DNA of 22,569 bases, from IMG/VR virus record IMGVR_UViG_3300007538_000213, positions 1-22,569 of that record; one strand, given 5' to 3'. The stretch is from a virus. This document shows, one piece after another, positions 6,143-22,569 of the stretch (its first letter is position 1; every line of letters begins with the position of its first letter). Position numbers and translations under genes: made by a program. The notes under the pieces were generated by a model. It made no database searches, was not told the DNA's origin, and saw only the letters and a program-made list of their open reading frames with translations.

Positions 6143-7161
6143 TGGCTACCATAACAGAACAAATCGTTCGCCAAGCCCCGTTTCTAGAGGATTTCCAGAA
6201 AAGAATACTGGAAGCCGGATTTGCTCGAGGCGAGACGCCTGTAGAGATTCCGGACATTCAGGTAGCGGCTCTTGATCCGCTAACGCAGCAAGCAATTACA
6301 ACTGGTCAAGGCATTGGCCAGTTTATGCCTTTTCTGCAAACAGGCGCAGACACGCTTGGAACAGGGCTTGCCACGCTACAGCAACGGGCGGCGATGTCAC
6401 CCGAACTGTTTACGCAGGCGCAGCAGCAGGCTCTTGGCACCGCGCAGGCTTACGATCCGACAAGCGCAGCGGCGTTTATGGACCCGTATCAGCAGGCTGT
6501 TACCCAAGACGCCTTGGCAGAGATGCGGCGTCAGGCGGATATGCAGCGCAATCAACTGGCCGCGCAGGCCGTGGGTGCTGGCGCTTTTGGTGGTAGCCGT
6601 CAAGGTATTGCGGAAGCGGAACTGGACAGAAACCTTGCGGACATTCAAAGCCGTCGAATCTTTGAGGATCTGAGCCGCAACTTCAATCAAGCGCAAAATG
6701 CGGCGCAGACAGCTTTTGAGAACCAGCAGCGCCGCCAGCAGGGCGTAGCGCAGCTTCTTGGTGGTCTTGGTAGCACCACCACTCAGGAAGCCGCTCGATT
6801 GGGCGCAGGCATCGCTGGCATTGGTACTACCCAAGCAAATATCGCTGGAGCCGGGCAGAGCCTGATTGGCCAGCAGTCGCAGTTGTTGTCACAACTCGGA
6901 GCCGCGCAGCAGACGCAGGCTCAAAGAGAGCTTGACGCCGCTCGACAGTCACAGCTACAGCAGTCCTATGAGCCCTTCCAGCGAGTCAGCTTTATGAGCG
7001 ACATCTTCAAACCGCAGATTGGCTCGGCATCCTCTACGATTGGAACGCAAGTCGCGCCGTCGCCAAGTCCGCTGTCACAGGCCATTGGCGCTGGTATAGT
7101 TGGCTTCGGCGCAAACAAAGCTTTGGGTAACCCGTTTGGCGATCTGTTTGGGAGCAGCTGA
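6142..7161 (+). CDS. Gln/Ala-rich helical virion protein (339 aa)
   Basis: The protein is extremely rich in Q, A and G and is predicted by eye to be mostly helical, with long heptad-compatible runs from about residue 85 to 290. A recognisable core is MDPYQQAVTQDALAEMRRQ followed by AVGAGAFGGSRQGIAEAELDRN. This motif recurs in uncharacterised structural proteins of marine podoviruses. A short conserved-looking element near the end is YEPFQRVSFMSDIFKP. There is no signal peptide, metal site or catalytic motif; a small Gly/Ala-rich stretch (about 312-330) lies near the C-terminus. It is coupled to both neighbours by TGATG overlaps and sits between two large proteins of probable ejection or tail type. 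A shaft, adaptor or internal core role is possible. The function is not known. Confidence 0.65.
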   Translation: MATITEQIVRQAPFLEDFQKRILEAGFARGETPVEIPDIQVAALDPLTQQAITTGQGIGQFMPFLQTGADTLGTGLATLQQRAAMSPELFTQAQQQALGTAQAYDPTSAAAFMDPYQQAVTQDALAEMRRQADMQRNQLAAQAVGAGAFGGSRQGIAEAELDRNLADIQSRRIFEDLSRNFNQAQNAAQTAFENQQRRQQGVAQLLGGLGSTTTQEAARLGAGIAGIGTTQANIAGAGQSLIGQQSQLLSQLGAAQQTQAQRELDAARQSQLQQSYEPFQRVSFMSDIFKPQIGSASSTIGTQVAPSPSPLSQAIGAGIVGFGANKALGNPFGDLFGSS

Positions 7162-9680
7162 TGATTGAGCGTCGTCGTCCGATACTATCGGCTATCGCAA
7201 ATAGGAAGATGTTCATGGGCGGGGGTCTGGCGACCCCTATGCCGCAGCCGACGTATATGGACCTGATGCCGCAGCAGATGGGCCTCCCGCGAGAGGCGCA
7301 AGGCATTATGGCCTCGTCCCAGCCCTTGGTCGATGCTATCGCTAGCGATGCTAACAACCCCTATGGCGGTGATACACTGTCCATGGCCCAGGGTGGTGTG
7401 GCCAAGTTTCAACGGGGTGGTGTTCAGTATGATCCGGCCACTGCCGTCACACGCGCTCAGAGAACTCGTTCTGAAAACCTTCAGACACTGTTTCCTCCCG
7501 AAAGAGCCGCCGGTCTATTGGATCAAATCGGCATTGGAAAAGGCCCGGGAGAGCTTTACTCGGATGAACCGTCGTTTACACGTAGGATGGTGGGCATGAT
7601 TCCGGGTCGAGCAGGGACAGCTTTGGAAGGCGCCGCAGAAGTGGGAGAAACAATCGGCAACGTTGTTGACTCTTTCTTAGGCGCACGATTCCGTGGTCAA
7701 AAAAACATCTTATCATATCTCTTCAGCGAGGAAGAGGAGGCTTCCGGTCGAAGCTTGAACGAGCGATATGGCCTTACAGAAATACTGTCTCGTATTTCCC
7801 CTGAATTGAAACAACAGAATCCCAATATCGAACGGGACATATTGGAGATTGGGGCTAACCTGATCGGGAAAACAGGATCTCAGCAAGAGTTTATGGAAGC
7901 GGTTGCCGATCAATACGCCAAGCAGCAAGAGGCCGGTTACGCAGCCGCCATGGCAGATGTCAATCGTGGACAAGTGGACGCAGTTTCAGACGAAGGATTT
8001 CCCGCACCGCAGCAGCCCGGCGATATCGTGATGCCTGGTGATGAAGGTGAGTTCTATCGAGAGGAGCTGAACAAGAAGATTGATGAGTACCGTGTTGCTA
8101 TGAGCCAAGGTCCAGAGGCTCAAATGAAGTTTGCTCAAGATCTTTCTGCGGACTCCGGCTTCTCGCAAGCTTTCAAAGACGAGGTCTTTCAGTCAGCGGA
8201 CGTGGGACCTCCTGTAAACGTCGGCAGATCTGTAGAAAGCGACTTTCCGGGCTTGGTTCCCACAAGTCCGGAAAGCGACTTTGAGGGCTTAGTTCCTATA
8301 AGCGAAGAGGAAGAAGCCACAGTACCACGTCCCAAAGAGAAGCCTCCCGTTCCGGACATCGCCCAAGGACAAACCGCCGCTACCGTAGACACAGCGCCTT
8401 CGGCAACGGGCGAGACAACGCCTGACACTTCCGCCCCCGCACAGGTGGCCAAAGCTTTCGATAAACCCATGACGAAGCCGGAAGCTGAGAAGACTATTGA
8501 GGATTATAAAAAAGATTTTATGAAAGCCATGCCCGAATACGATGGTGTGTCGGAAGAAGAAAAGGGATATCGGTTTATTGAAGCTGGTCTACGCGTGATG
8601 GCTGGGCAAAGCCCCAACGCGATTGAAAACATCGCAAATGGTCTTAAAGGGCTGGGCGCAGAGTTCGCTAAGGACGAAAAAGAGAAACGCGCCTACGACC
8701 GGCAAGTTGACTTGTCCGCCGCTAACTACGCTTTAGGCGCGATAGCCAAGGATGTCGCACAAGATCGTGCTGATGAAAGGAACCGGATTATCATGTACGA
8801 CATGACCGATCCGAAGAATCCTAAAGCCGTTTCTGTTGGAATGGATGAAATTATAGCAAACGATGGCAAACTTCCTGATAATCTTGTCGGCGAAAAAATT
8901 ATGTCCGCAAAGGTCAAAGCGGCAAATGATGCGACGGTAAGGTTACGGACGTTGCTTAGTGAAAACGCAAAGTCAATGCGTATCACTGCTACGGAAGCCA
9001 AGGATCTTAGAGATAGTTTGGGCAAGGCTCGAGAGTCTTTTGTTAGCGGCGAGAGCGGAATCCAGCTTCTTTCTCAAGTTAAAGCTAGGGTTGCAGCAGG
9101 GGGCGTTACAGGCTTTGGAGCCGCCGGCAAAGAATTAATCCGTCAGGCTTTTGCTGCTGCTGGTAAACAAGATCTACTGGGACAAAAATACAAAAACCTG
9201 TCAGAAGCTAGAGAAGAAATTCGTCGTGCTTTCCAAGCCTTGATACCGATCAGTCTTGGTTCTACTCAAACTGCGAACTCAATTTCAAACCGAGACGTTC
9301 AATTCTTGGCAGATGCTTATGTAAATTCTGGTTTCTTGGAAAACGGGGTATTTAGTTTTACAACGGTGAACGACGAAACGTTAGGGCAGCAGCTTGAAGG
9401 AGCCATTGGTAAGTTCCGAGACAGGCAAAAAGAAGGTTTAGCGGACTATGATCGTGTCTTGTCTCGCATAAACTCAGCGGAACAAGCCTTTCAGGACGCT
9501 AGGGGCTCTGGGATATTTGTTTCTCCTGGGCCGTTTACCTCATCTTATTTTGATCCTATTACCAAAGAGATTGATCCTTACGCTCAAAAAACGAGAGCTG
9601 TCTTAGAAGGCCGAACAGCAAAACCCGTTTTTACCTACGAGTTTAAAGATGGTGTTTATCGACGTGTTCCAGCGAGGTAG
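7161..9680 (+). CDS. Large virion protein, likely internal/tail structural (839 aa)
   Basis: It starts at the ATG of a TGATG overlap with GGGAG about 7 bases upstream. The N-terminus carries RKMFMGGG, then ASSQPLVDAIASDA and GGDTLSMAQGGVAKFQRGG, glycine-rich motifs recurring in uncharacterised marine phage virion proteins. Residues about 110-280 look helical. Residues about 355-460 are acidic and Pro/Thr/Ala-rich, probably disordered, and contain a tandem 12-residue duplication (ESDFPGLVPTSP then ESDFEGLVPISE). The C-terminal half (about 465-839) is charged and helical, and may be the folded body. No lytic transglycosylase or protease motif was found by reading. With the next gene it forms the pair of largest proteins in the block, a position often taken by ejection proteins in podoviruses; that role is inference. 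Confidence 0.65.
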   Translation: MIERRRPILSAIANRKMFMGGGLATPMPQPTYMDLMPQQMGLPREAQGIMASSQPLVDAIASDANNPYGGDTLSMAQGGVAKFQRGGVQYDPATAVTRAQRTRSENLQTLFPPERAAGLLDQIGIGKGPGELYSDEPSFTRRMVGMIPGRAGTALEGAAEVGETIGNVVDSFLGARFRGQKNILSYLFSEEEEASGRSLNERYGLTEILSRISPELKQQNPNIERDILEIGANLIGKTGSQQEFMEAVADQYAKQQEAGYAAAMADVNRGQVDAVSDEGFPAPQQPGDIVMPGDEGEFYREELNKKIDEYRVAMSQGPEAQMKFAQDLSADSGFSQAFKDEVFQSADVGPPVNVGRSVESDFPGLVPTSPESDFEGLVPISEEEEATVPRPKEKPPVPDIAQGQTAATVDTAPSATGETTPDTSAPAQVAKAFDKPMTKPEAEKTIEDYKKDFMKAMPEYDGVSEEEKGYRFIEAGLRVMAGQSPNAIENIANGLKGLGAEFAKDEKEKRAYDRQVDLSAANYALGAIAKDVAQDRADERNRIIMYDMTDPKNPKAVSVGMDEIIANDGKLPDNLVGEKIMSAKVKAANDATVRLRTLLSENAKSMRITATEAKDLRDSLGKARESFVSGESGIQLLSQVKARVAAGGVTGFGAAGKELIRQAFAAAGKQDLLGQKYKNLSEAREEIRRAFQALIPISLGSTQTANSISNRDVQFLADAYVNSGFLENGVFSFTTVNDETLGQQLEGAIGKFRDRQKEGLADYDRVLSRINSAEQAFQDARGSGIFVSPGPFTSSYFDPITKEIDPYAQKTRAVLEGRTAKPVFTYEFKDGVYRRVPAR
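8235..8306 (+). repeat. Tandem duplication, two 36-base units within the 839-aa virion gene
   Basis: Two adjacent 36-base units both begin GAAAGCGACTTT and encode ESDFPGLVPTSP and ESDFEGLVPISE. The units differ mostly at third positions and near their ends, so the duplication is not brand new and the amino acid pattern has been kept. It sits in an acidic, Pro/Thr/Ala-rich, probably disordered linker. It could be a short binding motif in two copies. Confidence 0.75.
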
Positions 9681-9685
9681 CGGCA

Positions 9686-12600
9686 ATGGCTATTATTAGC
9701 GTAGAAACGCCCGATGGCATCAAGAAGGTTGAAATTGAGGGCGATGCTCCCACAGAAGAGGAAGAACTGTTAATACAACAGACGTTTTTTTCTGATGACG
9801 CTCCGGCTCCATCTGGACCTCCAGACCCCGCTACAACACCTTACAGTGAATTAAAAGCTTACTATCAAGCACAGGAATCCACTGACGAGGTATCCGACAT
9901 CGCCCCCACGGTTGAGGGACAGGTTACCGACTCTGGTGTTCGCTATGAGTTTGGTAAAAGGGACACCGCTCAAGAACAAGAAGAGTTCCTGACTCGGGTC
10001 TATGGCCCAGACTCTTTTGTCAAGGACAACCGTGGCCGATATCTTCTGAACCTAGATAACATTTCGCCAGAGGTAAAAGCCCGGCAGAACTTGCCTGATG
10101 AAGGTGGGCTCATGTGGTTCAACAAGCCGGGCGGAGGCTTCTTAGGCCTTTTCGACATGCCCGACATTGTTGAGTTTGGAGGTCGATATCGAGGCGAGCT
10201 TATTGGTGGAACGGCAGCGGCGCTGGCAACAACTGGCGTTGGTTTGCTGCCAGCCTCTATTTTAATAGGTCTGGGCGCTGGCGCTGGTAAAGGGTTTGAT
10301 GAACTTCAGGAGTACGTGCAGGGAACGCAGCGGCAAACTCCTGATGAAATCTACGGCGATGTGGCGACAGCAGCCGCGTATAACGCTGGCGGTAATCTTA
10401 TCGTTGGTGGTGCAATACGAACTGTTGGTAAACTCATTCGAGGTCCTGGTAATCCGGACGCGCAAGTTATTTCTGATCTTATGGATCAAGGCCTTTCTGC
10501 ATCCGCAGCGAAAGCGGCAGCGGTTCAGATGCAAAGAACGCAGACTAGAGAGGCCATAAAAGGTGGCGCACGGCCCACGATCCAAGAAGCAACCGGCAAA
10601 TCCGTTCTTGGTCGTATACAGGCTATTCAGGAATCTATCTTCCCGAACAAGAAAGCCGCACGCGCTAATCGCAAGTACGTGCAAGACCTTATTCAGAAAT
10701 ACAAAAGCGGTGAGCTTAGTGATGAGGCTTTCGGAGCCGCGCTTGATCAAAACGTAAAAGACGTTTCGCGCTTGATAAGTGGCGCGATGAAGGATCCTGA
10801 CGAGGCTGTTAAGCTGGCTAATCAGCAGCTTCGTGACGTTATTGAGCAAGAGATGAATCTGTTGAAACAGGTTTACACAACTGGGGACGAGACTGCTGCC
10901 GCGTTCCAGAATGAGATGACGCGCATGGTTCGTCTTTGGCAGAACAATAACAAGGAACTGTACGACAACGCTTCTAATTTAATGGACGATGTCCGTCTGT
11001 TTAACGCAGATGATTTGATACAAACCGTTAATGCTCAACTGAAAGCCCCACTGGCGGCAGAGCAGGGTCTGGCTAATAACCCTGTGTATCAGTACATCCT
11101 TAACAAGACAGATGATTATACTCTAGGCGAGCTTCAGGCTCTTCGATCAGCGGTTCAAAACTCTCGTAGCGGAAGTCTGGTTGGAGACGTTACAGACAAT
11201 CAGTTGAAGGGTCTGTCCGACAAGCTCGATGACATGTTTAACACTGCTGAGTTGAAAATTAACGAACTTAAAGTTCTTGCCGAGAATGGCCAGTTAACTT
11301 ATCAGCAAATAGGTAAGGCCGCTCCAACTTCTCCGGAAGGGGCTCAATTAGGATTTGATATATCCGGAAGACAATTTCTTACGGACACGGATGCAGCCGC
11401 GTTTGCAAAACAACTTGCCAATGGCTTGGTGAAGTTTAAAGACGCTCAGAAACACTACAAAGATGGCGCGGAGATATTCAAAACCGGCGCTATGAACATG
11501 CTCAACCAGAACATCAAGGAAGGCTACTTTGCCGACCTCAGTTCTGTTGTTGAGGCTGTAGTGCAGCCGGGTAAACCGCAACTTCTTCTTAACTATCTAA
11601 AAGGTGTTACACCGAACGCAACAGTGCGCGGCGCAATGCAGAGCATTCCAGAAACTCAGTGGAATGCGATGGCCAATGCTGCACGTCAAGGGAACATAAC
11701 AGAAGTTAATCGTCTTCTTGGGGCAAATTTTCCTGAGTTGGCTGGCGGAGGCTCCGCCGCACAAAAAGCCTTGTCCAAGATTGGGCTTGGTTTTCGTCCT
11801 CCGAAATTTATCGAATCACTGCCACAGAACGATCCGTATCGTCAGCGTGTTCTTGGAGAGCTTGCAGACACGTTTCAGCTTCATGCCGACGATGCCACAG
11901 CCGCAGCGGCTGGGACGGCACACAGGGATGTCGCTCGACAAGCGTTGGCAAGCACCTGGATAAAAAGCACGGTTCAACAAGCAAATGACTTGGGCGTTTT
12001 CGACCCCGCAGCATTTCGTAGATCGTTTGATAGCTTGGGTAAGGAAGTTCAAGATGCTTTGTTTGGCCAAGCAGAAGCTAGAAGACTTAACGGTGTTTTA
12101 AAAGATTTTGCACTGGTGGCACCTGATCCGGTGAGGGGTGGATTCCGGTTTGGGTCTGTTGCTCCATCGTCTATTACAAACCCAAACATGCGTAACATTG
12201 TGCAAAGTTTGCAGGCGGATGTGGCCGAAGCGCAGGCGCAAAGTTCTAGCGCATTGTTTAACGCTGTGAAAACAGGGCGGATAGACGATGCCGATGCGCT
12301 GGTTCAAGCGGCAGTAAAAGATCCAAAGCTTGTAGACGAGCTTATCAACAAAGTCCCTTCGTATAACTTAGACGAGCCCTTTGGACTGAAGGACGCCATG
12401 ATGTCTCGGATTATCCGAGAAGCGTTTCCAAAAGGGATTACAGAGGAAGCTGTGGCCTCCGGTGCTTGGAGAGATGCCATGGCAGCGTCCATCACCAACC
12501 TTAATCAAAGAGGCTCTTTGTCGAAGGTTCTTGGGCAGGATGTTGTTCGAGACTTGGTGAAGCTGACCAAGATTCCAGTTGGTGATCAGGCACTCAAGGG

Positions 12601-13138
12601 CAAAGGTGGTCTAGCCGCCCCCACGTATGTCGCCGGTTTGGGTGTTGCTTTGATCGCCAACCCTGCGGCAACGATTCCTTCCGTTGCTGGTATATTCCTC
12701 AGTTCTAGGATATTGCGAAACAAAACCTTTCTTAATTTGCTGACACGTCCAAACATCAGGGCTGGAGAACTGAAGAAAGGTATAAGAGCTTTGGCTGATG
12801 ATCTTATGGCCAAGGCTAAAGCAGATGGCGTGACACTGACCCGACAGCAAGCTACGGCAGAAGCAAAGAAGCAGCTTGGTAATCTGAGCGTGTTCCGGCG
12901 TCAGGTTAATGACGTTATTGGCAAAGAGCTTCGTCTGATAAGCTCCACATACGCTTCAGGGTCGCTTGATTCGGACACGCGTCGAGAAATAGGCGAGACA
13001 GTGTCTCAAGGCATAGAGGCAGTGCGTCCCGTTGTTCAGGATATTCAGCAGCAGATTCCGGCTGCGGCACAAGCGGCGCAAGAAATGAATCCTCTACGAC
13101 AGCAAGAAATTAACAAGCTCATGACAGGACGACCCTAA
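9686..13138 (+). CDS. Very large internal virion/DNA-ejection-type protein (1150 aa)
   Basis: An SD-like GAGGT lies about 8 bases before the ATG, across a 5-base gap from the previous stop. The N-terminus (ISVETPDGIKKVEIEGDAPT, then a Glu-rich helix) resembles the start of large virion proteins in marine phages. Residues about 171-200 are Gly/Ala/Leu-rich and hydrophobic (GGTAAALATTGVGLLPASIL), and a second such stretch lies near 975-1005 (YVAGLGVALIANPAATIPSV). Between them the protein is long, helical and charged, and the C-terminus is Gln/Ala-rich. Its size, helical content and two possible membrane-contacting segments recall internal core proteins that leave the virion with DNA, such as the class of T7 gp16, but I see no transglycosylase motif. 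The role is inferred from architecture and from position just before the endolysin. Confidence 0.65.
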   Translation: MAIISVETPDGIKKVEIEGDAPTEEEELLIQQTFFSDDAPAPSGPPDPATTPYSELKAYYQAQESTDEVSDIAPTVEGQVTDSGVRYEFGKRDTAQEQEEFLTRVYGPDSFVKDNRGRYLLNLDNISPEVKARQNLPDEGGLMWFNKPGGGFLGLFDMPDIVEFGGRYRGELIGGTAAALATTGVGLLPASILIGLGAGAGKGFDELQEYVQGTQRQTPDEIYGDVATAAAYNAGGNLIVGGAIRTVGKLIRGPGNPDAQVISDLMDQGLSASAAKAAAVQMQRTQTREAIKGGARPTIQEATGKSVLGRIQAIQESIFPNKKAARANRKYVQDLIQKYKSGELSDEAFGAALDQNVKDVSRLISGAMKDPDEAVKLANQQLRDVIEQEMNLLKQVYTTGDETAAAFQNEMTRMVRLWQNNNKELYDNASNLMDDVRLFNADDLIQTVNAQLKAPLAAEQGLANNPVYQYILNKTDDYTLGELQALRSAVQNSRSGSLVGDVTDNQLKGLSDKLDDMFNTAELKINELKVLAENGQLTYQQIGKAAPTSPEGAQLGFDISGRQFLTDTDAAAFAKQLANGLVKFKDAQKHYKDGAEIFKTGAMNMLNQNIKEGYFADLSSVVEAVVQPGKPQLLLNYLKGVTPNATVRGAMQSIPETQWNAMANAARQGNITEVNRLLGANFPELAGGGSAAQKALSKIGLGFRPPKFIESLPQNDPYRQRVLGELADTFQLHADDATAAAAGTAHRDVARQALASTWIKSTVQQANDLGVFDPAAFRRSFDSLGKEVQDALFGQAEARRLNGVLKDFALVAPDPVRGGFRFGSVAPSSITNPNMRNIVQSLQADVAEAQAQSSSALFNAVKTGRIDDADALVQAAVKDPKLVDELINKVPSYNLDEPFGLKDAMMSRIIREAFPKGITEEAVASGAWRDAMAASITNLNQRGSLSKVLGQDVVRDLVKLTKIPVGDQALKGKGGLAAPTYVAGLGVALIANPAATIPSVAGIFLSSRILRNKTFLNLLTRPNIRAGELKKGIRALADDLMAKAKADGVTLTRQQATAEAKKQLGNLSVFRRQVNDVIGKELRLISSTYASGSLDSDTRREIGETVSQGIEAVRPVVQDIQQQIPAAAQAAQEMNPLRQQEINKLMTGRP

Positions 13139-14287: not shown

Positions 14288-16216
14288 TCACTTCGCTTCG
14301 CCCCAGTTATCGCCCAAGCCTACGTCCACCTTGGACGGTATGGTCAGACCCGGCGCACAGTTCTCCATCAGTGACTTGATCTCGGCCACCTGATCGTCGC
14401 TCTCTATCGAAAAGCACAGTTCGTCATGAACGGTAATCATGGGCCAATGTCCATGGTCCATGCAGTCCTTCATCGCCAACTTGGTCTGGTCCGCCGCCGA
14501 CGCCTGTATCAGCCTATTCAGCGCCTTGTACACGAACGCTACTTGATACCGTTCCGGGTTCAGGCTTGCCCAATTGTTGTCGCGCTCTTCGACCGGCGTA
14601 TCCAGAACATCGCGCCACCTCTCTTCGAGGCGGTCCACGTGGATCGGCTTCTTGTACTCCTTGGAGTAGCCTTTCAGTTCCCGCATGGGGAACCGGCACT
14701 TGCGGCCCAACAGCGTCCGCACTTCGCAACGCTTGGACGCGGCATCCATGACTGACGAAGCAAGAGCCCGGATGAACGGCACCTTCTCGTCATACTCGTT
14801 GCGGAGAAGCTTGGCTTCTTCAAACGGTATATCGCCCAAGGTCGCCGCCAGCTTGCCAATGCCCATGCCGTACATAATGCCCAGGTTAATCGTCTTGGCG
14901 TGAGTACGGCTGACGCCGGCCATGTCCGCGACAATCTGATGGAAGTCCAGATCATCGTTTTGGTACTGTTCCGCGATCTCCTTGACCTTCTCGTTGTCCC
15001 TCGTGGCCGGTGCTAACGACGCGTAGTGCATCATCCACCGTGGCTCTTGGGCGCTGTAATCAAAGCTGCCCCACCGGCATCCCTCCTCCGGTATAAACAG
15101 ACCACGGACCAAGGACTTTATTTCTGGGTGGCGGGACGGAACTTGCTGCAAATTCGGATTGCTCGATGAGAATCGTCCTGACACAGTTCCACCTTCGTCA
15201 GAGCGCAACTGGTTAAACTGACAGTGGATACGGCCATTGTGCTGATGATTGAGAATCGTATCAACAAAGGTGGTGTTCGCCTTGTTGTATTCACGAATCT
15301 CCAAGATTTTCTTGGCGATGGGGTGTTCGTGGGTTTTGAGGAAATGCTTTGTAAAGCTGGGCGCGTCTGACTTCGCTGTTCGCTCATACGTAAGGCCAAG
15401 GTTGTCAAAAACCATTGCCAGGCTTTTGGCGTTCCAAGGTTCGAGATGAACATCCGTTTCATCCTTGACCTCCTTTAACAGCTTGTCCTCTTTCTTTTGT
15501 AGAAACTCCTTGGTTTGCTCGGCCTTGTCCACGTCCACCCGAACACCACGTCGTTTCATCTCAAAGATCATAGGCAGAAGCGCCAGCTCTGTCTTCAGAA
15601 TCTCCTCGCAGTCATCCTCAATCAGCTTCTGATGTAGAACATGCCAGAGCTTGAGAGTCAGCGTTGCGTCCATTTCCGCATACGCCGCCACCCTTTCGGC
15701 TGGTAGCTTCCACATTTCCGCCTTGGCATCTACGCCATGCTGGTCTGCCGCCCTTCGAAGATCCTCCTCCGCTTTGCGCTCTCCAAGGTACGTGGATCCC
15801 AGAGCGTTAAGAGAATAACTGAACCTGTTCTCATCAAGCAGGGGCGCCGCAATCATTGTGTCCAGAATACGACCCTTAACCGTAATACCTTCCGATAACA
15901 GCCACCCTAAGTCATACTGTGCATTGTGAAACACCACGGACATGCCGTGGTCTAATTGGTCTTGGAGCCACCTGAGTACGAGATCCTTTGCCATGTTTCC
16001 CCCACCTTCGTGGGCAATCGGCAAGTAGGCGCTCCACTCAGAGGCGGCGACAGAAATCCCTATAAGGTTTCCATCGTTTCTAACCCACCCTGGCCCCAAG
16101 TCTCTTAAATGCGGATCCTTTGTTTCAGTGTCTATGGCAATAATTTTCTCGCCGGACAGGTCCGGTAGGTGTTCCGGCGGAAACCAGACCTTCTCATCAA
16201 ATAAGTCTTCACGCAT
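14288..16216 (-). CDS. polA: Family A DNA polymerase with 3'-5' exonuclease domain, Leu762 type (642 aa)
   Basis: This is the phage replicative polymerase. The proofreading domain (about residues 22-195) has Exo I D29-T-E31, Exo II FHNAQYD102 and Exo III Y179AEMD183, so it should be active. The polymerase domain has the SGRFSSSNPNLQQVP element (346-360), motif A D386YSAQEPR with H397, motif B R437THAK441TINL445GIMY449G and motif C VH597DE. No 5'-3' exonuclease domain is present, as is usual for phage enzymes. Leu445 replaces Phe762 of E. coli Pol I, a position known to affect nucleotide discrimination. Motif B places Arg, Lys and Tyr normally. The start ATG overlaps the stop of the DUF6378-type gene by 8 bases (ATGCGTGA), so translation is probably coupled. 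It is the last gene of the replication transcript. Confidence 0.96.
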   Translation of the reverse strand: MREDLFDEKVWFPPEHLPDLSGEKIIAIDTETKDPHLRDLGPGWVRNDGNLIGISVAASEWSAYLPIAHEGGGNMAKDLVLRWLQDQLDHGMSVVFHNAQYDLGWLLSEGITVKGRILDTMIAAPLLDENRFSYSLNALGSTYLGERKAEEDLRRAADQHGVDAKAEMWKLPAERVAAYAEMDATLTLKLWHVLHQKLIEDDCEEILKTELALLPMIFEMKRRGVRVDVDKAEQTKEFLQKKEDKLLKEVKDETDVHLEPWNAKSLAMVFDNLGLTYERTAKSDAPSFTKHFLKTHEHPIAKKILEIREYNKANTTFVDTILNHQHNGRIHCQFNQLRSDEGGTVSGRFSSSNPNLQQVPSRHPEIKSLVRGLFIPEEGCRWGSFDYSAQEPRWMMHYASLAPATRDNEKVKEIAEQYQNDDLDFHQIVADMAGVSRTHAKTINLGIMYGMGIGKLAATLGDIPFEEAKLLRNEYDEKVPFIRALASSVMDAASKRCEVRTLLGRKCRFPMRELKGYSKEYKKPIHVDRLEERWRDVLDTPVEERDNNWASLNPERYQVAFVYKALNRLIQASAADQTKLAMKDCMDHGHWPMITVHDELCFSIESDDQVAEIKSLMENCAPGLTIPSKVDVGLGDNWGEAK

Positions 16217-16481
16217 CTTTATTTTCCATTATCGCCGCCCACAAAGCGGTGTATGCGGAAGCATCTACACCGTTATCCGATTTTATCTTGCCCTTTTCGT
16301 TTCGAGCCACCTTCAGCAAAGTCATGCAGAAGGCGACCTGTTCCGCTGATATGTCTGTCTCTAGGTACGCGGTCCACAGGTCCGCCGCCCTTTGGTGCAT
16401 ATCTGTGTAGTCTCCGTACTGCTCCGCTCTGTCTCCGCTTACCAGAGCCGCTGCCGTCTCAAGAAACTCGCTGGGTTTCAT
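16209..16481 (-). CDS. DUF6378-type small helical protein (90 aa)
   Basis: The sequence matches the pattern I know for DUF6378: LVSGDRAEQYGD, then H29..AADLW36.AYL, a helix around LLKVAR60 and DNGVDASAY near residues 69-77. The whole protein appears alpha-helical and soluble. The biochemical function of the family is not established as far as I know. The conserved D/E/H/K positions and the D-N-x-x-D element recall all-alpha NTP pyrophosphohydrolases of the MazG group, which would suit a nucleotide-pool role beside a polymerase, but that is inference. It overlaps the helicase gene by 4 bases (ATGA) and the polymerase gene by 8 bases, so its expression is tied to both. Confidence 0.8.
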   Translation of the reverse strand: MKPSEFLETAAALVSGDRAEQYGDYTDMHQRAADLWTAYLETDISAEQVAFCMTLLKVARNEKGKIKSDNGVDASAYTALWAAIMENKDA

Positions 16482-18010
16482 ATCTCGTAGTACCTGTTTG
16501 TTTCCGGCAGCATGATATGGAGCGCCTTCTTGGCTCTGGTCACCGCGACGTAGTACACCCGATGCTCGGTCGCCGGGTTGCCCATATACTCCTTGTACGC
16601 GGCATAAGATAGGTCCGGAACCACTAGAATGTTATCCGCCTCGCCGCCTTTCATAGAATGTATAGTACTAACCTTTATTCGCGGATTACGCACGTTATCT
16701 TTTCGTTTCAACGCATTAAGGACGTAGTTCTTCGTATCGAGGTCGATCTTGGACAACGCCCGATGCCACCGCACAGATCCATCCAATAACAGGCCCAGCT
16801 TGTCCCGCGCTTCCGACATCCCGATCTCTGCTTCCGGGTCCAATCCCAAAAGGGCCTTGGAACGCGCTCCGAAGCCCCGTGAGTAGCCGTGGCCCATCTC
16901 CATGAAGGTGTAGACGTTCCGGATCTTCGTGGGCGTCAGCGGCTCTCCCTTGGACCATTGCTCCCAATCGTGCAGTGCCTCGTATGTCTTTGTCGGAATG
17001 CTGGGGTGACCATTGCGGCTGTAAACCCAACCCTCATCGCGCAAAGCTTGCGCGTAATGCGAAGCGATCCGGTTGGTCCGCGCCATGACGCACCACTCGC
17101 CCTCATCAAATGGGACATCCCAAATGCTCTGATGTACGTGGTAGCTGCCCTCTTCGTCCCTTGGCCGCCACTGCTTTGGGGCTCTACCTTCAATCCGGCT
17201 AACGATGTTCTGAGCCTCCGCCCACACCGTCTTGGGTAGCCGGTACGATTGCTCAAGGACCGTCTTCTTTTCGGTTGCGTTTAGAAAGGCCCCTACATCC
17301 GCGCCTTGGAATCCCATGATGGCTTGGTCATCATCGCCCGTGAATACCTGTATGCGGGGCTTCTTCCGGAGAACATTGACCATGGACCACTGAAGGGTAG
17401 ACAGATCCTGCGCCTCGTCCACGAACAGAGCCTCTATGTCTGGCCCATCGCCCGACTTGATGAAGTTCGTAATCATGTCCGTGAAATCGATTTTCTTACG
17501 AACACGCTTGTAATCTTCGTAGGCCAAGACAAGACGCTTCAACTCCGGCCAATCGACGTTGTAGTCCCCAAGACGCCTGTGCATCTCTTCGAGGCTTAGT
17601 CCCTTACTCCGCGACAGGTGATACCGGCTCATGTAGAAGTCACCCTTGGCCAAGCTCAACGTGTCGAAGTCTGACTCGGTATCGCCTCCGGACTTGCTAC
17701 CGAAGGGTATGCCTACCGCCTGACCGATCTCCTTCATGTCTTTGCCGCTCAGAACATCATCGGAGCTGTAGCCACCGGATCGAAACGCCATGGAATGCAG
17801 CGTCTGGAAGTAGGGCATGTCTTTCTCATCAATGCCCCAATCGCGGCATACGCGCTCCCGGCTTTCCTTTGCCGCCTTACGAGTAAACGAAACACAAGCA
17901 ATGCGGTCTGGGGCGATGCCCTGTTCGATGCACTCTCGTATCCGGTTGGAGTTGGTCTGCGTCTTGCCAGTGCCTGGTGGACCAAGGATGGTTTCGTGTT
18001 GGTCTGTCAA
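16478..18010 (-). CDS. UvrD/Rep-like superfamily 1A DNA helicase (510 aa, TTG start)
   Basis: This is an ATP-driven 3'-5' DNA helicase by family. The full SF1A motif set is visible: Walker A G10PPGTGKT17, Ia VSFTRKAAKE (40-49), Walker B VDEAQD (197-202), motif III TGDDDQAIMGFQGAD (224-238), motif IV EQSYR (253-257), motif V STIHSMKGGEADN (448-460) and motif VI YYVAVTRAKKAL (486-497). At 510 residues it is compact compared with UvrD/Rep (about 670-720), so the 1B and 2B subdomains must be reduced. The start is a TTG overlapping the primase stop (TTGA). The first in-frame ATG lies beyond Walker A, so TTG is the only start that keeps the ATPase intact. The upstream GAGG is about 10 bases away. 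It probably unwinds DNA for the neighbouring primase and polymerase. Confidence 0.93.
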   Translation of the reverse strand: MTDQHETILGPPGTGKTQTNSNRIRECIEQGIAPDRIACVSFTRKAAKESRERVCRDWGIDEKDMPYFQTLHSMAFRSGGYSSDDVLSGKDMKEIGQAVGIPFGSKSGGDTESDFDTLSLAKGDFYMSRYHLSRSKGLSLEEMHRRLGDYNVDWPELKRLVLAYEDYKRVRKKIDFTDMITNFIKSGDGPDIEALFVDEAQDLSTLQWSMVNVLRKKPRIQVFTGDDDQAIMGFQGADVGAFLNATEKKTVLEQSYRLPKTVWAEAQNIVSRIEGRAPKQWRPRDEEGSYHVHQSIWDVPFDEGEWCVMARTNRIASHYAQALRDEGWVYSRNGHPSIPTKTYEALHDWEQWSKGEPLTPTKIRNVYTFMEMGHGYSRGFGARSKALLGLDPEAEIGMSEARDKLGLLLDGSVRWHRALSKIDLDTKNYVLNALKRKDNVRNPRIKVSTIHSMKGGEADNILVVPDLSYAAYKEYMGNPATEHRVYYVAVTRAKKALHIMLPETNRYYEI

Positions 18011-19542
18011 AACGGTGGATCCTCTGGCTCAAACGTCACCTCTGGAAGGTCCACTTCACCACGATGCATCTCCGGTACAAACCAAACCCGCACCGACTTC
18101 CAGTTATCGTTGTTGTCGCGGAACCTGTAGGTCTTATCCGACTCCGTCCCGTTGTTCATCTCCTTCAGACGCTCGGTAATCTGACCCCGCGTGTACTGCG
18201 TAAAATTATTGCGCTTCAAAAAATCCTGTAGAGAACTAAGCTTGAAGTACGTAACACCGTCCTCGGTCCACGGTTTACCTGTCAGCAGTTCTTCTGGGCT
18301 GTGTGCCTGAATCCTCGAAGTGCAGAAGTTCTCCAGCAACTCCGTGAACAAGCCCTTCTGGGTAAGTTCCTCCGGCACCGATATCCTCGTCGCGTCACTG
18401 AGCAAACTGTCCACCAGATCTCGCCAATCCGATTCCTTCATCCGTGCCGGCATCTTGTACATCTGTTCCATGCAAGCCCTCTGAAACTCCACTTGCATCT
18501 GTAGCTGCTTGGTAGACAACTCCAGCCGGGCACCGTCCACGTCCACGAACCAGACAGGAGGCTCCGACTCCACAACCGTCAGGCCACCGACAGGGACGTG
18601 CGAGTTCGCATCCCCCACCCCAAACTTCCGCGACCGACAAAGAGACTTGTTACAGTGACTATGCAAGGGCTCCGACTTGCACGTGTAGAAGTACTCCTTC
18701 TTCTCCAGCTGCTCTTGCACAACGACCACTTCACGCGCTGGCAGCGGCGGATTGCAGTAATCCTGGTTATGCTTCTCAAGCAGTTGTTTCCAATCGTTTG
18801 GAGCGGCCTGTTTGTAGTAAACGCCAATGTTCATGAGCGTCATGTTGCGACCGCCCTCCGGCGTACCAAACTCGGTGAGCTGCTGTAGGCAAGGCGGTCC
18901 ATCCGGCAGGATTGCGCTGTCGCCCCCCAAGGATATACCCGCCAGTTGCTTGGCGGTGATCCGCGCCTTCTCCGCTGCCGCCAGAAACTCCTCCAGTGAC
19001 ATGGAGTCGCCGTTCTTCTTCAGCGCATATCGGGTGGTGTACTTCGCGTTCTGATAGGGCAGATTGATAAAGTTACCCACGTCGCCGCGCTCCGCCAGCA
19101 ATTCTTCCTGCTTCGGAAATATCTCGCAGTTGCCCCAACCCAACGCTGCGGCAAACTCGGCCAGACGGTCGCGCATCTCGGACGCTGCAATCCGCTCTGA
19201 CATAAATAAAAACAAATGAGCGCCCCCAGACTTGGATCGGCACAGAATCAGGGGCAGCTTGAACCTTTTGACCTTGGCCAGTAGAAGCGGAAGATTGAGG
19301 TTGTAGTCGTCAATGTCCAGCGCACCGAACTGACACTTGTTCGTTTCATCGATTGGTATCGACCCGACACCTAGTCGTCCGTCCAAGTGATCTTGAACGT
19401 GGTCCACGGACAACGGTTGACGGACGATCTCATACTTCGCCTGTTGCTTGCCGTTCCGCTGACGACCTAAAACGTCTGTCTGTCCATGGGCTCCTTGCGA
19501 CCCGGAAAACAGGTCAAGGAACCTTTGTGCTAAATCTTCCAT
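18007..19542 (-). CDS. Archaeo-eukaryotic-type (TOTE-like) DNA primase (511 aa)
   Basis: Expected role: synthesis of primers for the phage polymerase. Numbering from the ATG, the AEP metal motif is GALD76ID78D, followed by the nucleotide-binding RSKSGGAH109LFLF and the NFINLPY element (157-163), the layout of TOTE conflict-system-type primase domains. A cysteine/histidine cluster lies at C288, H296, C297 and C302, probably a zinc-binding insert. The C-terminal 200 residues look helical (winged-helix-like, near YFKLSSLQDFLKRNN) and carry no helicase motifs, so unwinding is left to the SF1 helicase that overlaps it by 4 bases. I chose the ATG at 19542 because MEDLAQRF fits the likely domain start. 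A GTG at 19581 would add 13 residues, encoded across a terminator-like hairpin. SD signals are poor for both, so the start is uncertain. Confidence 0.87.
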   Translation of the reverse strand: MEDLAQRFLDLFSGSQGAHGQTDVLGRQRNGKQQAKYEIVRQPLSVDHVQDHLDGRLGVGSIPIDETNKCQFGALDIDDYNLNLPLLLAKVKRFKLPLILCRSKSGGAHLFLFMSERIAASEMRDRLAEFAAALGWGNCEIFPKQEELLAERGDVGNFINLPYQNAKYTTRYALKKNGDSMSLEEFLAAAEKARITAKQLAGISLGGDSAILPDGPPCLQQLTEFGTPEGGRNMTLMNIGVYYKQAAPNDWKQLLEKHNQDYCNPPLPAREVVVVQEQLEKKEYFYTCKSEPLHSHCNKSLCRSRKFGVGDANSHVPVGGLTVVESEPPVWFVDVDGARLELSTKQLQMQVEFQRACMEQMYKMPARMKESDWRDLVDSLLSDATRISVPEELTQKGLFTELLENFCTSRIQAHSPEELLTGKPWTEDGVTYFKLSSLQDFLKRNNFTQYTRGQITERLKEMNNGTESDKTYRFRDNNDNWKSVRVWFVPEMHRGEVDLPEVTFEPEDPPF

Positions 19543-19543
19543 G

Positions 19544-19575
19544 AAAAAGTAGGGACCCGCGATTAAGCGGGTCCC
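19544..19575 (-). terminator. Intrinsic terminator/attenuator between SSB-like and primase genes
   Basis: On the minus strand GGGACCCGC pairs perfectly with GCGGGTCCC around a TTAATC loop (9 bp, nearly all GC). TAC and then five T residues follow, ending one base before the primase ATG. This is the standard shape of a Rho-independent terminator. It lies only 7 bases past the stop of the SSB-like gene and inside the replication operon, so it probably ends part of the transcripts and gives more SSB-like protein than primase, helicase and polymerase. The perfect stem is seen directly; the partial read-through is inference. Confidence 0.75.
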
Positions 19576-19581
19576 ACGCAC

Positions 19582-20352
19582 CTAGAATGGCACTTCTTCG
19601 GATTGATCCGCAATCACCTCAACTTCCTGCGGCGGCGGAGCAATCTTCAGTTCTCCCGAACTGATAGACGAATGCAGTTCCTTACAGTCGTTGTAAGCTT
19701 CTAGGGAAGGCACAGTGCCTTCCATTGCAATGCTCCAAGACCCCCACGAACCTTTGTCGTTACCATCTTCAACTGACTTGAGACGGTAGGTGTTGGCGAA
19801 CGACGGCATCGTCTTGCCGTTGTGCTTCTGCATCATCATCATAGACAACCAAAGGCGGCTCTTTTTCAGCTGCGTCTTCTTCATGTCAACGATGGCATTC
19901 TCAAGATTGCCGTCCTCGTGAACGATCTTGACGTAATGCTGCGCGGTGCGAACAAGCTCGTTACCGCTCGGCAGAAGTTCCATGCCGCTATCCTTGTCGC
20001 GAACCGCAGCCCGGATGTCCGGTGAGTCCGCTGCAATCTCGCCCAAGAAACCACCGCCTTGGGTTCGAGGTACAAATTCCAAAAACTTCATCTGGAAATG
20101 CACCGGCAGAACGACCACGCCTTCTTCGCCTTCCCACACATGGTTGGTCACCGTGTTGAAGATGTCGCCTTGGCTGGCTCCCGCGATGAAAGCTGGGTCG
20201 CTTTTCTTTAACTGCGGGGACAGCGCCTGAATGATCCGCAGAAAAGGTATCTGCAAATCCGACGAGGTGACTTCCTCAAAGCCGTATGAAGCGTCCTCTT
20301 CAAACGCGGCGGCGAGTTCTGCTGGTAGTTTTCCGTTTGCTTTAGCCATCAT
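19582..20352 (-). CDS. Probable single-stranded DNA-binding protein (256 aa)
   Basis: The start codon is the first of a tandem ATGATG, preceded by an excellent AAGGAG about 4 bases away and overlapping the previous stop as ATGA. The N-terminal half (about residues 25-95) has SSDLQIPFLRIIQ and GASQGDIFNTVTN, followed by a beta-rich core VVVLPVHFQMKFLEF. The last residues are acidic and end in DQSEEVPF. A flexible acidic tail ending in PF is the hallmark by which SSBs, and T7 gp2.5 by analogy, recruit partner enzymes. The strong RBS and the terminator immediately downstream suit a protein needed in large amounts. I place it as SSB-like from these features and context, not from a clear OB-fold match. 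A recombination-associated DNA-binding protein is the main alternative. Confidence 0.65.
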   Translation of the reverse strand: MMAKANGKLPAELAAAFEEDASYGFEEVTSSDLQIPFLRIIQALSPQLKKSDPAFIAGASQGDIFNTVTNHVWEGEEGVVVLPVHFQMKFLEFVPRTQGGGFLGEIAADSPDIRAAVRDKDSGMELLPSGNELVRTAQHYVKIVHEDGNLENAIVDMKKTQLKKSRLWLSMMMMQKHNGKTMPSFANTYRLKSVEDGNDKGSWGSWSIAMEGTVPSLEAYNDCKELHSSISSGELKIAPPPQEVEVIADQSEEVPF

Positions 20353-20933
20353 GATTCTCCTTTAATCTTGGCATATGTTCCAATTGACGCGTTAAACAGT
20401 TCTAGGTCGATCTCTTGACCTGATTCCATCCGCTCACGAATAAGCTTCTTGAGCGTCTGGGGTTCCACCCACGTTTTGGCGGCAGTGTCGTAACCTTGCG
20501 ATTCCAGATCCGCTTGCATTGCACGAGCGCGATTGTCCTCGCTCACGGCAAAATCAACGCTGATCTGATTCTTAATGAAATCAGACGCGCCGATCTCACG
20601 AAGGTGAGACAACGCAATGTCACGCTGTAAGGGATCTTTCGGCATGGTGCCGTTCACATAGGTGGCTAGGCTAATCTTGTTGCCTCCCACCTTCGCCTCA
20701 TCAAGACCTGTCTCTTGCATCTTCGCAGGAATCAGATCGTGGGTATAACGGTTGATCTGCCGCTTCAGGCCTTTCAACCGCTCCTCCGCCTCACCAAGCT
20801 GCGTCTGCAACTCACTGAGGTGACGGATCATCGACGCCAGCTCGGTGGCGCCCTCTGTAGTCAGATCGTTAAACGCATCAGCGTCAGCTTCCGCATCCGC
20901 CTCAATCGTTTTCCAAAGGTCGTTATCACTCAT
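20349..20933 (-). CDS. Conserved phage hypothetical, acidic N-terminus plus coiled coil (194 aa)
   Basis: The N-terminus is highly acidic (repeating EADAEADADAF). About residues 35-75 form a likely coiled coil (LSELQTQLGEAEERLKGLKR), followed by a compact region with VGGNKISLATYVNG and PKDPLQRDIALSHLREIGA. The end is LKKLIRERMESGQEID and FNASIGTYAKI. I recognise this overall pattern as recurring in replication regions of marine phages, but no function is assigned to it. No membrane segment or catalytic motif is seen. It starts in a TAATG overlap with the upstream gene and ends in an ATGA overlap with the SSB-like gene. The gene order suggests a replication accessory role, such as a loader or SSB partner. 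That is inference only. Confidence 0.75.
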   Translation of the reverse strand: MSDNDLWKTIEADAEADADAFNDLTTEGATELASMIRHLSELQTQLGEAEERLKGLKRQINRYTHDLIPAKMQETGLDEAKVGGNKISLATYVNGTMPKDPLQRDIALSHLREIGASDFIKNQISVDFAVSEDNRARAMQADLESQGYDTAAKTWVEPQTLKKLIRERMESGQEIDLELFNASIGTYAKIKGES

Positions 20934-21283
20934 TACCGTATCTCCTCGTCAGGTGCTAAGTTCTCAATGCCACCGCCGCGCAACTGTAGCTTTACGGGAT
21001 AGTATGTTTTCTCCATACGATCCCACTTCAGGATGTTGACACGACCGTGGTTTCGTTCCGCAAAAACGGCAAAAGCTACCCCGATGATGGCCGGGTCACC
21101 CATGGCCAACAACCAATCGTCATCACCAACGTTCCGTAGCTTGCGTCGTATCTGCGACACGATGCGGCCAGGGTTTACGTGTATCTGATCGAAGGGATTC
21201 GTAAGCGGTTCAAGGTCCCCCCACTTGTTTGCGGAAACGATATTCACGCGGGGGTTTTCTTGCGTTACGTAGACAGTTGCCAT
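20933..21283 (-). CDS. Conserved phage hypothetical, first gene of the replication operon (116 aa)
   Basis: The start is the ATG at 21283, giving MATVYVTQENP, with GAGAG about 5 bases upstream; a TTG one codon earlier is less likely. The protein has short strands and a helix, with RIVSQIRRKL near the middle, then a conserved-looking DDWLLAMGDPAIIGVAFAVF and ILKWDR. The LxxGDPAxIGxA ... LKWDR pattern is one I recognise in small proteins at the start of early gene blocks of podoviruses, with no known function. No DNA-binding motif is obvious. Its stop overlaps the next start as TAATG. As the first gene after the divergent promoter region it would be made early. Function unknown. Confidence 0.75.
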   Translation of the reverse strand: MATVYVTQENPRVNIVSANKWGDLEPLTNPFDQIHVNPGRIVSQIRRKLRNVGDDDWLLAMGDPAIIGVAFAVFAERNHGRVNILKWDRMEKTYYPVKLQLRGGGIENLAPDEEIR

Positions 21284-21366
21284 CAATCTCTCACTTTCTG
21301 ATTTTCACACCATAATCCATGATTTAGGGGTATGCAACAGGTAAATTGCAATATATAGTGCCAACC
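21284..21366. promoter_or_regulatory. Divergent promoter region between replication operon and SNF2 helicase
   Basis: These 83 AT-rich bases separate two divergent starts and are the largest non-coding gap in the window. For the minus strand, TTGCAT (21332-21337) and TATGGT (21309-21314) are spaced 17 bases apart, a weak but well-spaced sigma70-type pair. For the plus strand, TATAGT (21354-21359) is a good -10 look-alike without a clear -35, ending 7 bases before the helicase ATG. The region probably drives both transcripts. The exact elements are tentative. Confidence 0.5.
21333..21350. promoter_or_regulatory. Candidate operator dyad in divergent promoter region
   Basis: TGCAA and TTGCA form inverted arms separated by 8 bases (CAGGTAAA). 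The right arm is shared with an 8-base perfect palindrome ATTGCAAT (21345-21352). The left arm overlaps the candidate minus-strand -35 and the right arm lies just before the plus-strand -10-like box, so a bound protein could affect both directions. A dyad this short can arise by chance in AT-rich DNA, so confidence is low. Confidence 0.25.
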
Positions 21367-22569
21367 ATGGACTATCAGTACAAAACCAAGCCTTATAAAC
21401 ACCAAGACGATGTTTTGCGTCAATCCTGGTCGAAAGAGAACTGGGGTTTTTTCATGGAGATGGGGACCGGCAAGTCAAAGGTGTGCATCGATACGGCGGC
21501 GATGCTGTATCAGGCCGGCAAGATCGACACGTTCATCGTGATTGCGCCGAAGGGCGTGTACCGAAACTGGTCACGCACCGAGATACCCACCCACATGCCA
21601 GACGATTGTCTCGAGGCCGCGTTGTCTGCGACGTGGAACCCGAATCCTAAAAAGGCGGACAAGGTCGATCTAGCCAGCTTCATGCGACCGAGTGAAGGCT
21701 TCCGCATACTGGTCATGAACGTGGAGGCACTCAGCACGAAGAAGGGACAGAAGTACCTAACAGAAGTGTTGAGGATGTCGAACGCACTGTTAGCGGTAGA
21801 CGAAAGCACGTCAATCAAATCGCCCAAAGCTTCACGGACCAAGGCCCTTCTTCAGATGTCGCACTTGGCGAAGTATCGTCGAATCCTGACCGGGTTTCCT
21901 GTCACGCAATCGCCCATGGATCTCTGGTCGCAATGCCGGTTTATGGATAAGCGGCTGCTTGGCGAGACAGGTGACAACTTCTTTCAGTTTCAGTATCGAT
22001 ACGCCGTGATGAATCGACGCAACGTCGGATCACACAGCTTCAATCAAATCGTCGGCTATCGAAACTTGGAAGAGCTGTCCAGCCTGCTCAAGACATTCAG
22101 CAGCCGCGTCATGAAGGATGATTGCTTAGACCTACCAAAGAAGATTTACACCCGGCGTAGCGTTCAACTGTCGGAAGACCAGGCTCGAATCTATCGCGAC
22201 CTGAAAGAGTATGCGCTGGCGCACATTGAAGACGAAGAGTTCATGACCACGACCAACGTCATGACCCAGCTGTTACGGATGCAGCAAGTGCTGTCCGGTC
22301 ACACACGATCCGACAGCGGAGAAACGATAGAGATCAAAGACCATCGACTAAACGAACTGATGGACTGTCTCGAAGAGGTCGAGGGTAAAGCCATCATCTG
22401 GTCGCGGTTCCGCTACGACATAAAGCGTATCGAGAAGGCGCTGACCAAGAGGTATGGCCCACGGTCCACGGTCAGTTATTTTGGTGACACGTCGGACACG
22501 GAACGGTCGGAGGCCATCGAAAGCTTCCAGAACGGCGAGGCGCGGTTCTTTGTGGGCAACCCACAGACA
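21367..22569 (+). CDS. SNF2-type superfamily 2 helicase/ATPase (3' end missing)
   Basis: The frame stays open to the last base of the window, giving the first 401 residues. Motif I is M32GTGKS37; motif Ia VIAPKGVYRNW is at 58-68. The Walker B box is D145EST in AVDESTSIK, and motif III is LTGFPVT (174-180). The second RecA domain begins with AIIWSRFRYDIKRI, and YFGDTSDTERSEAIESFQNG (motif V region) lies near the end; motif VI is cut off. This is the usual layout of phage SNF2-like SF2 ATPases, which translocate on double-stranded DNA and are thought to help replication or recombination. It runs divergently from the replication operon. No Shine-Dalgarno is visible before the ATG, yet MDYQYKTKPYKHQ matches the expected N-terminus, so the start is kept. 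Confidence 0.9.
   Translation, partial: MDYQYKTKPYKHQDDVLRQSWSKENWGFFMEMGTGKSKVCIDTAAMLYQAGKIDTFIVIAPKGVYRNWSRTEIPTHMPDDCLEAALSATWNPNPKKADKVDLASFMRPSEGFRILVMNVEALSTKKGQKYLTEVLRMSNALLAVDESTSIKSPKASRTKALLQMSHLAKYRRILTGFPVTQSPMDLWSQCRFMDKRLLGETGDNFFQFQYRYAVMNRRNVGSHSFNQIVGYRNLEELSSLLKTFSSRVMKDDCLDLPKKIYTRRSVQLSEDQARIYRDLKEYALAHIEDEEFMTTTNVMTQLLRMQQVLSGHTRSDSGETIEIKDHRLNELMDCLEEVEGKAIIWSRFRYDIKRIEKALTKRYGPRSTVSYFGDTSDTERSEAIESFQNGEARFFVGNPQT

Follow-up and report, generated by a model that had tools for sequence, protein, structure and literature searches.

Replicative helicases are generally taken to be rings, and nearly all double-stranded DNA (dsDNA) viruses that bear a primase carry a replicative helicase, according to the part of PMC5862659 that draws on its authors' earlier survey. 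Primase-bearing elements that lack any helicase gene are known and are rare (PMC5862659). Among virioplankton contigs encoding a family A DNA polymerase (PolA) of the Leu762 Group II type, 68% carry UvrD, always together with SNF2, and non-ring helicases replacing gp4/DnaB were noted in passages of the same study (Nasko et al. 2018, PMC6302109). In the pTN2-like plasmids of Thermococcales, the replicon core consists of an archaeo-eukaryotic primase (AEP)-type prim-pol immediately followed by a UvrD/Rep-like superfamily 1 (SF1) helicase that has been proposed to unwind the plasmid, and prim-pol types have been swapped beside related helicases (PMC3543421). Herpesvirus UL5/UL52/UL8 likewise combines an SF1 helicase with a primase of the AEP superfamily bearing a Zn motif as the viral fork engine (PMC8187027). 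Here, we analyzed the record IMGVR_UViG_3300007538_000213 (the window), a linear marine phage fragment of 22,569 bases with a replication block that encodes an AEP primase, a UvrD-like helicase of superfamily 1A (SF1A), a candidate single-stranded DNA-binding protein (SSB), PolA, and an SNF2-family protein.

The window resembles the Leu762 Group II module in that the Leu762 PolA, UvrD-like, and SNF2-like genes adjoin in both (PMC6302109). The same gene order, with SNF2 facing away from gp32-gp33-gp34-AEP-UvrD-x-PolA, is found in the HTVC023P-type pelagiphages (HTVC027P, HTVC023P, and 023Pt) and in DSL-LC04, whose module proteins are approximately 27 to 49% identical to those of the window, marking the latter as a distinct lineage. 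Helicases and PolA are among the 13 core genes of HTVC023P-type genomes (PMC9599517). A temperate lifestyle was suggested for the Leu762 module in a passage of PMC6302109, but HTVC027P, which carries the module, is obligately lytic (PMC12753301), which argues against it. The pTN2-like plasmids, likened to the window by description, differ in being archaeal, in their size of about 12 kb, and in using the prim-pol as the replicase (PMC3543421). The likeness to the herpesvirus pair is an analogy: UL5 of herpes simplex virus travels 5′-3′ and has been modelled on Pif1 (PMC8187027), whereas the window enzyme is UvrD/PcrA/Rep-like and would be expected to travel 3′-5′. Rep, PcrA, and UvrD in the rolling-circle replication of phiX174, M13, and plasmids are also SF1A enzymes serving small replicons. 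They are host-encoded and work with a nicking initiator, unlike the window helicase, which is phage-encoded beside a primase, with no nickase seen.

Leu762-PolA, UvrD, and SNF2 modules and AEP-SF1 pairs are thus already known, and the module is widespread and partly described. Beyond the passages of PMC6302109 that describe it, we add the link to the AEP primase and the SSB candidate, a dedicated UvrD clade, a pattern of mutual exclusion with fused D5/AAA_25-type domains, and the absence of a recognizable ring helicase in complete genomes. The reading that we favor, with modest confidence and from sequence comparison, is that the block constitutes a replication module that spreads horizontally among phages and whose main fork helicase would be the UvrD-like SF1A enzyme.

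Conserved linkage of the AEP primase and the UvrD-like helicase

An earlier note on this DNA had described a TTGA stop/start overlap between the primase and UvrD genes, and this can be read in the sequence (...ccaccgttTTGAcagacc). Their association extends far beyond the window. Among 50,697 phage records, the AEP was found in 25 and the UvrD clade in 28, with both present in 24. In the IMG/VR loci, UvrD was present for all 69 AEPs having at least 3.2 kb of downstream DNA, and the AEP was present for all 68 UvrDs having at least 3.2 kb of upstream DNA. All of 100 AEP-UvrD pairs on related contigs lay on the same strand. A universal overlap was rejected, as the 4-base overlap occurs in about half of these pairs, and other pairs are separated by up to 1.2 kb of inserted genes. 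Inserts at the primase-UvrD junction of relatives (L012:2354-3540, L025:4817-6015, and L054:7194-7655) encode either a 225-aa protein that has no Pfam match, accompanied by a Vut_1 transporter, or a protein weakly similar to Mom; the junction is possibly a hot spot for cargo related to DNA modification or queuosine.

The UvrD-like protein has the N- and C-terminal domains and motifs I to VI of the UvrD/Rep/PcrA (SF1A) family. The motif residues (Walker A GK, DEAQD, GD..Q, SxR, H..KG, and R) were invariant across 39 homologues, comprising the kin of the window and ten distant phages, at 27 to 88% identity to the window UvrD. Its matches among solved structures were all (13/13) of the PcrA/UvrD/Rep type or the mycobacterial UvrD type, and it was therefore assigned to SF1A, a kinship from which 3′-5′ translocation is expected. 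In a tree with four outgroup rows only, the AEP-linked UvrDs formed a single clade (support 100/99), apart from E. coli UvrD, Rep, and the second UvrD of phages Pan1 and R5C.

The pair appears to travel with the rest of the module. A related genome of 57,823 bp, G001, whose primase, UvrD, and PolA are 84%, 79%, and 88% identical to those of the window, fits the HTVC023P-type podovirus core (terminase, portal, capsid, GroES, and replication), sharing 25 to 26 proteins with HTVC027P, 023Pt, and DSL-LC04 (terminase, 61 to 64%; capsid, 67 to 74%). It shares 5 to 7 proteins, mainly of replication, with MW202510 and with Acinetobacter, Salmonella, Providencia, Pseudanabaena, and Dinoroseobacter phages, indicating that the replication module is exchanged as a whole among phages with unrelated virions. 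The clade UvrD is also found beside other primases, namely, a Prim-Pol (PF09250) in Meiothermus phage MMP17 and an annotated primase without a Pfam match in Thermus phage Riverbug. Neither of these two Thermales phages has an annotated PolA or SNF2, and UvrD and the terminase TerL are their only convincing P-loop open reading frames (ORFs).

A profile scan of bacterial genome contigs with a closer primase alignment recovered 47 AEP relatives. UvrD was in reach of 27 of the 31 short stand-alone AEPs with a readable flank, but of none of the 11 AEPs that are long or differ in other ways. Pfam domains were searched for in seven of these 11, and DUF5906/D5-type domains were found in three and AAA_25 in one (over the cutoff), with a sub-threshold DUF927 match in another and the AEP domain only in two, L189 (546 aa) and L190 (1,065 aa, with a P-loop). 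For an eighth, L196, Pfam likewise gave the AEP domain alone. This pattern suggests that UvrD occupies the place of a fused hexamer-type helicase domain.

The AEP relatives with fused DUF5906/D5, AAA_25, or (weakly) DUF927-type domains are L183, L187, L191, L193, and L198. Module contigs in the range L157 to L199 were binned in metagenome-assembled genomes of Chloroflexi, Verrucomicrobia, Planctomycetes, Bacteroidetes, and Armatimonadetes; many of them are probably misbinned phage contigs.

Search for a hexameric helicase in complete relatives

The earlier note had seen no hexameric helicase in the block and proposed a profile search of the full genome. The window record gave no DnaB_C match, which is weak evidence because it is a linear fragment, well under half the length of its 55- to 61-kb relatives, so the search was run on complete relatives. 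G001 is essentially a complete circle, since both ends of its contig fall within gp34 and are separated by a gap of about 8 codons. A listing of GK[ST]-type motifs in all of its ORFs, together with a profile match for TerL, left UvrD, SNF2, and TerL as the recognizable P-loop motors, the other motif matches lying in small or structural ORFs. No helicase was found among its unknown ORFs, either in the ten largest of the early region (Pfam and PHROG) or in 35 smaller ones (Pfam); these scans gave terminase, methyltransferase, PAPS reductase, GroES, hydrolases, and DNA-binding regulators.

We then considered nine complete module phages (MW202510, DSL-LC04, DMU1, 023Pt_psg01, PMBT28, Kokobel2, Pan1, R5C, and HTVC027P). 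No match was found in them to DnaB_C (PF03796) or MCM (PF00493), nor to the D5-type profile (PF19263) over the cutoff, and DnaB_C gave none even at an E value of ≤10 in 13 records. A sub-threshold DUF5906 match in Pan1 is located inside an annotated clamp-loader gene and was discarded. In seven of the nine phages, AAA_25 (PF13481) matched only Walker-region fragments of UvrD or TerL. MMP17 and Riverbug likewise had no DnaB, D5-type, or MCM matches. As a positive control, the DnaB search did find the DnaB-like protein of the outgroup MW202803, which encodes a diverged AEP and lacks a match to the window UvrD. The absence noted for the block therefore extends to an essentially complete genome and nine complete ones, although the window fragment alone proves little. 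Pan1 (L007) and R5C (L008) have an expanded replisome with two further SF1 helicases, a clamp, a clamp loader, and queuosine-pathway genes, and since these further helicases are present, UvrD is not the sole motor there.

A hexameric helicase in the unrecovered part of the window phage's genome, for which the 22.6-kb linear contig would leave room, is very improbable, as none was found in G001, in G002 (55,988 bp; 69% primase identity), or in the complete HTVC027P, 023Pt_psg01, and DSL-LC04.

Primase and SSB candidate

The window primase has an AEP fold with the DxD and SxH motifs of the AEP superfamily. The model of its catalytic domain matched the CRISPR-associated CAPP Prim-Pol 7nqd (Foldseek E value, 1.4e-8; probability, 1.00). 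The whole-primase AlphaFold model was poor past this domain (pLDDT 62, with residues 299 to 387 below 50), and our structural claims are limited to the catalytic domain. The primases of relatives start at the position matching the ATG at 19542, so the true start is probably this codon, giving a protein of 511 aa. Counted from there, D76, D78, H109, and C288/C297/C302 were invariant in 15 diverse homologues. The scan of the window primase found a single Pfam domain and no fused helicase domain. In TOTE conflict systems, an AEP is fused to helicase/nuclease modules within one defense protein. We rejected this label here, because the primase stands alone (511 to 524 aa) in a replication operon and has the AEP domain alone in common with those systems.

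An acidic tip ending in Pro-Phe is a hallmark of bacterial SSB C-termini. The primase ends in such a tip (..EPEDPPF, 18007-18030), with a PF-type tip kept in 88/88 primases, and the gp34-like protein ends in ..SEEVPF (19582-19600), with an acidic PF ending in 71 of 73 complete homologues, mostly ..EVPF or ..DIPF. Since both proteins share this ending, the primase and the SSB candidate may dock on a common partner. The structure model of the gp34-like protein (pLDDT 76) is OB-fold-like. Foldseek gave no match at an E value of ≤0.001; the best alignment was to the phiC31 recombination directionality factor (RDF; 9teh; Z 7.5), and the RB69 and T4 gp32 cores aligned with VIA Z scores of 5.8 and 5.7 over 154 to 156 residues, values below 8 that make the fold match suggestive. 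From this model and the C-terminal tip, the gp34-like protein is probably an SSB, and the model also raises a possible kinship between RDF and phage SSBs.

PolA and SNF2

The window PolA has a RTHAKTINLGIMYG motif with Leu where the E. coli enzyme has Phe762, and Leu was found at this position in 77/77 related PolA proteins. Together with the adjoining UvrD and SNF2, this places the window with the Leu762 Group II module, an assignment made by Leu762 and gene neighborhood, apart from the published Group II tree. The SNF2 homologue of G001 is full-length (489 aa, PF00176 and PF00271), and in those complete relatives that were examined outside the Thermales phages, the module comes with SNF2.

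A proposed fork and its alternatives

In the arrangement that we favor, the UvrD-like motor would unwind the duplex, traveling 3′-5′ on the leading-strand template ahead of the Leu762 PolA, which would follow it. The AEP primase, the product of the same operon and perhaps physically coupled to the helicase, would prime the displaced strand, which the gp34-like SSB would coat. SNF2 would act as a dsDNA translocase, clearing or remodeling rather than unwinding. The earlier note had left the choice between an SF1/SF2 enzyme and a recruited host DnaB as the fork helicase. We regard an SF1 motor as the better option, given the nearly constant linkage of primase and UvrD and the position of UvrD in place of the D5/RepA/DUF927-type domain that is fused in other AEP relatives. 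The note's description of such an engine as mechanistically unusual is overstated, given the precedents in PMC6302109, PMC3543421, and PMC8187027. If the model is true, processive copying of 40 to 60 kb would need no ring in abundant marine phages, and the replisome would be small and purifiable. More tentatively, we raise the possibility that a globally spread class of phages copies genomes of 40 to 60 kb without any hexamer, viral or host, their only fork engine being the UvrD-clade SF1A (3′-5′) enzyme physically coupled to the AEP primase and the Leu762 PolA. The motor on the leading strand of such a bacterial virus would then have the polarity known from archaeal and eukaryotic forks.

Several points weigh against a fork role for UvrD. 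Free UvrD is poorly processive, as cited in a passage of PMC6302109, and the linkage would also fit an accessory or recombination helicase acting beside host DnaB. The sequences behind the linkage counts are related and are not independent trials, so that Fisher values overstate the significance. DMU1 and PMBT28 have SNF2, not UvrD, after the primase, the UvrD of DMU1 lying 5 kb further down; two other contigs with primase-SNF2 and no UvrD, L179 and L182, are not firm exceptions, as they end before that distance. Two Mesorhizobium AEP loci have neither a dedicated UvrD nor a fused domain. Finally, a helicase without a recognizable Walker A motif or profile match could be missed.

The alternative that fares best, although we consider it unlikely, is that host DnaB is recruited as the fork helicase and the phage UvrD is an accessory enzyme for barrier removal, recombination, or repair, like E. 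coli Rep. The host supplies DnaB at all times, accessory motors of the UvrD/Rep type are known (PMC2807033), and the Mesorhizobium loci without a dedicated UvrD are in line with this explanation. During HTVC027P infection, host dnaE, dnaN, dnaQ, dnaX, and dnaG rise, but dnaB is not named in the main text of that study (PMC12753301). No DnaC/IstB-type loader was found over the cutoff in the 13 records searched; the weak IstB matches fall in short AAA ATPase ORFs in Pan1 and R5C and in UvrD in 023Pt. Known DnaB-loader families were also absent from the 35 small G001 ORFs, loaders outside the known families being possible. Moreover, if a phage did no more than recruit DnaB, neither the strict primase-UvrD linkage nor the absence of UvrD where a D5/AAA_25-type domain is fused would be expected.

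Less probable still is synthesis of a continuous or rolling-circle type with no true fork helicase, in which strand displacement would be done by PolA, assisted by SNF2 as a translocase. Virioplankton PolAs that adjoin SNF2 do displace strands in vitro, and their authors proposed this same model, but a high enzyme concentration was required, as stated in passages of PMC9069017. The window PolA has Leu762 and SNF2 goes with the module, both in keeping with this scheme; however, it leaves the retention of UvrD with the primase unexplained, and MMP17 and Riverbug have an AEP-UvrD pair without an annotated PolA or SNF2.

Gene layout of the window

The window contains only tail/virion, lysis, and replication genes, with plus-strand virion genes and an endolysin in its left part. 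The replication operon occupies the minus strand (14288-21286) and reads gp32-, gp33-, and gp34-like (named after Pam3), AEP primase, UvrD-like, DUF6378, and PolA, with SNF2 on the opposite strand (Table 1). The enzymes named in the earlier note were all located by Pfam and PHROG matches, and the SSB-like protein by its structure and C-terminal tip, but that list left out the gp32-like, gp33-like, and DUF6378 genes. The description of the replisome as self-contained is too strong, since the block showed no gene for a clamp, an initiator, a ligase, or a topoisomerase.

Table 1. Replication genes of the window, with profile matches and their E values
Feature	Position	Strand	Profile matches
SNF2-family SF2 translocase/helicase, gene running off the contig at its 3′ end	21346..22569	+	PF00176 9e-19, phrog_62 6.8e-90
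Pam3 gp32-like small protein, first gene of the replication operon	20933..21286	-	PF23992 5e-26
Pam3 gp33-like protein (DUF7307)	20349..20933	-	PF23984 5.5e-21; phrog_253 (weak, E 0.0023)
Pam3 gp34-like protein, probable single-stranded DNA-binding protein	19582..20352	-	PF23977 6e-66
AEP-superfamily primase: AEP-TOTE domain, Cys-rich Zn-type motif, C-terminal region	18007..19581	-	PF22548 9.8e-15; PHROG 'primase' 1.3e-91
UvrD-like SF1A helicase, 510 aa, TTG start; candidate fork helicase	16478..18010	-	PF00580 1.6e-29, PF13361 7.5e-11, phrog_1967 5.7e-76
DUF6378 small protein, encoded between the UvrD-like and PolA genes	16209..16481	-	PF19905 1e-24
Family A DNA polymerase with 3′-5′ exonuclease	14288..16216	-	PF00476 8e-56, PF01612 4e-14

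The weak match of the gp33-like protein is Mu Gam-like, and the corresponding protein of DSL-LC04 carries the annotation DNA-ends-protecting protein; judging from these similarities, it may guard replicating ends from host nucleases. In the virion region (7161-13138), two proteins of 839 and 1,150 aa without a PHROG match are 48% and 32% identical to those of G001, compared with 80 to 88% for the endolysin and several replication genes. They are fast evolving, perhaps with a role in host contact or ejection.

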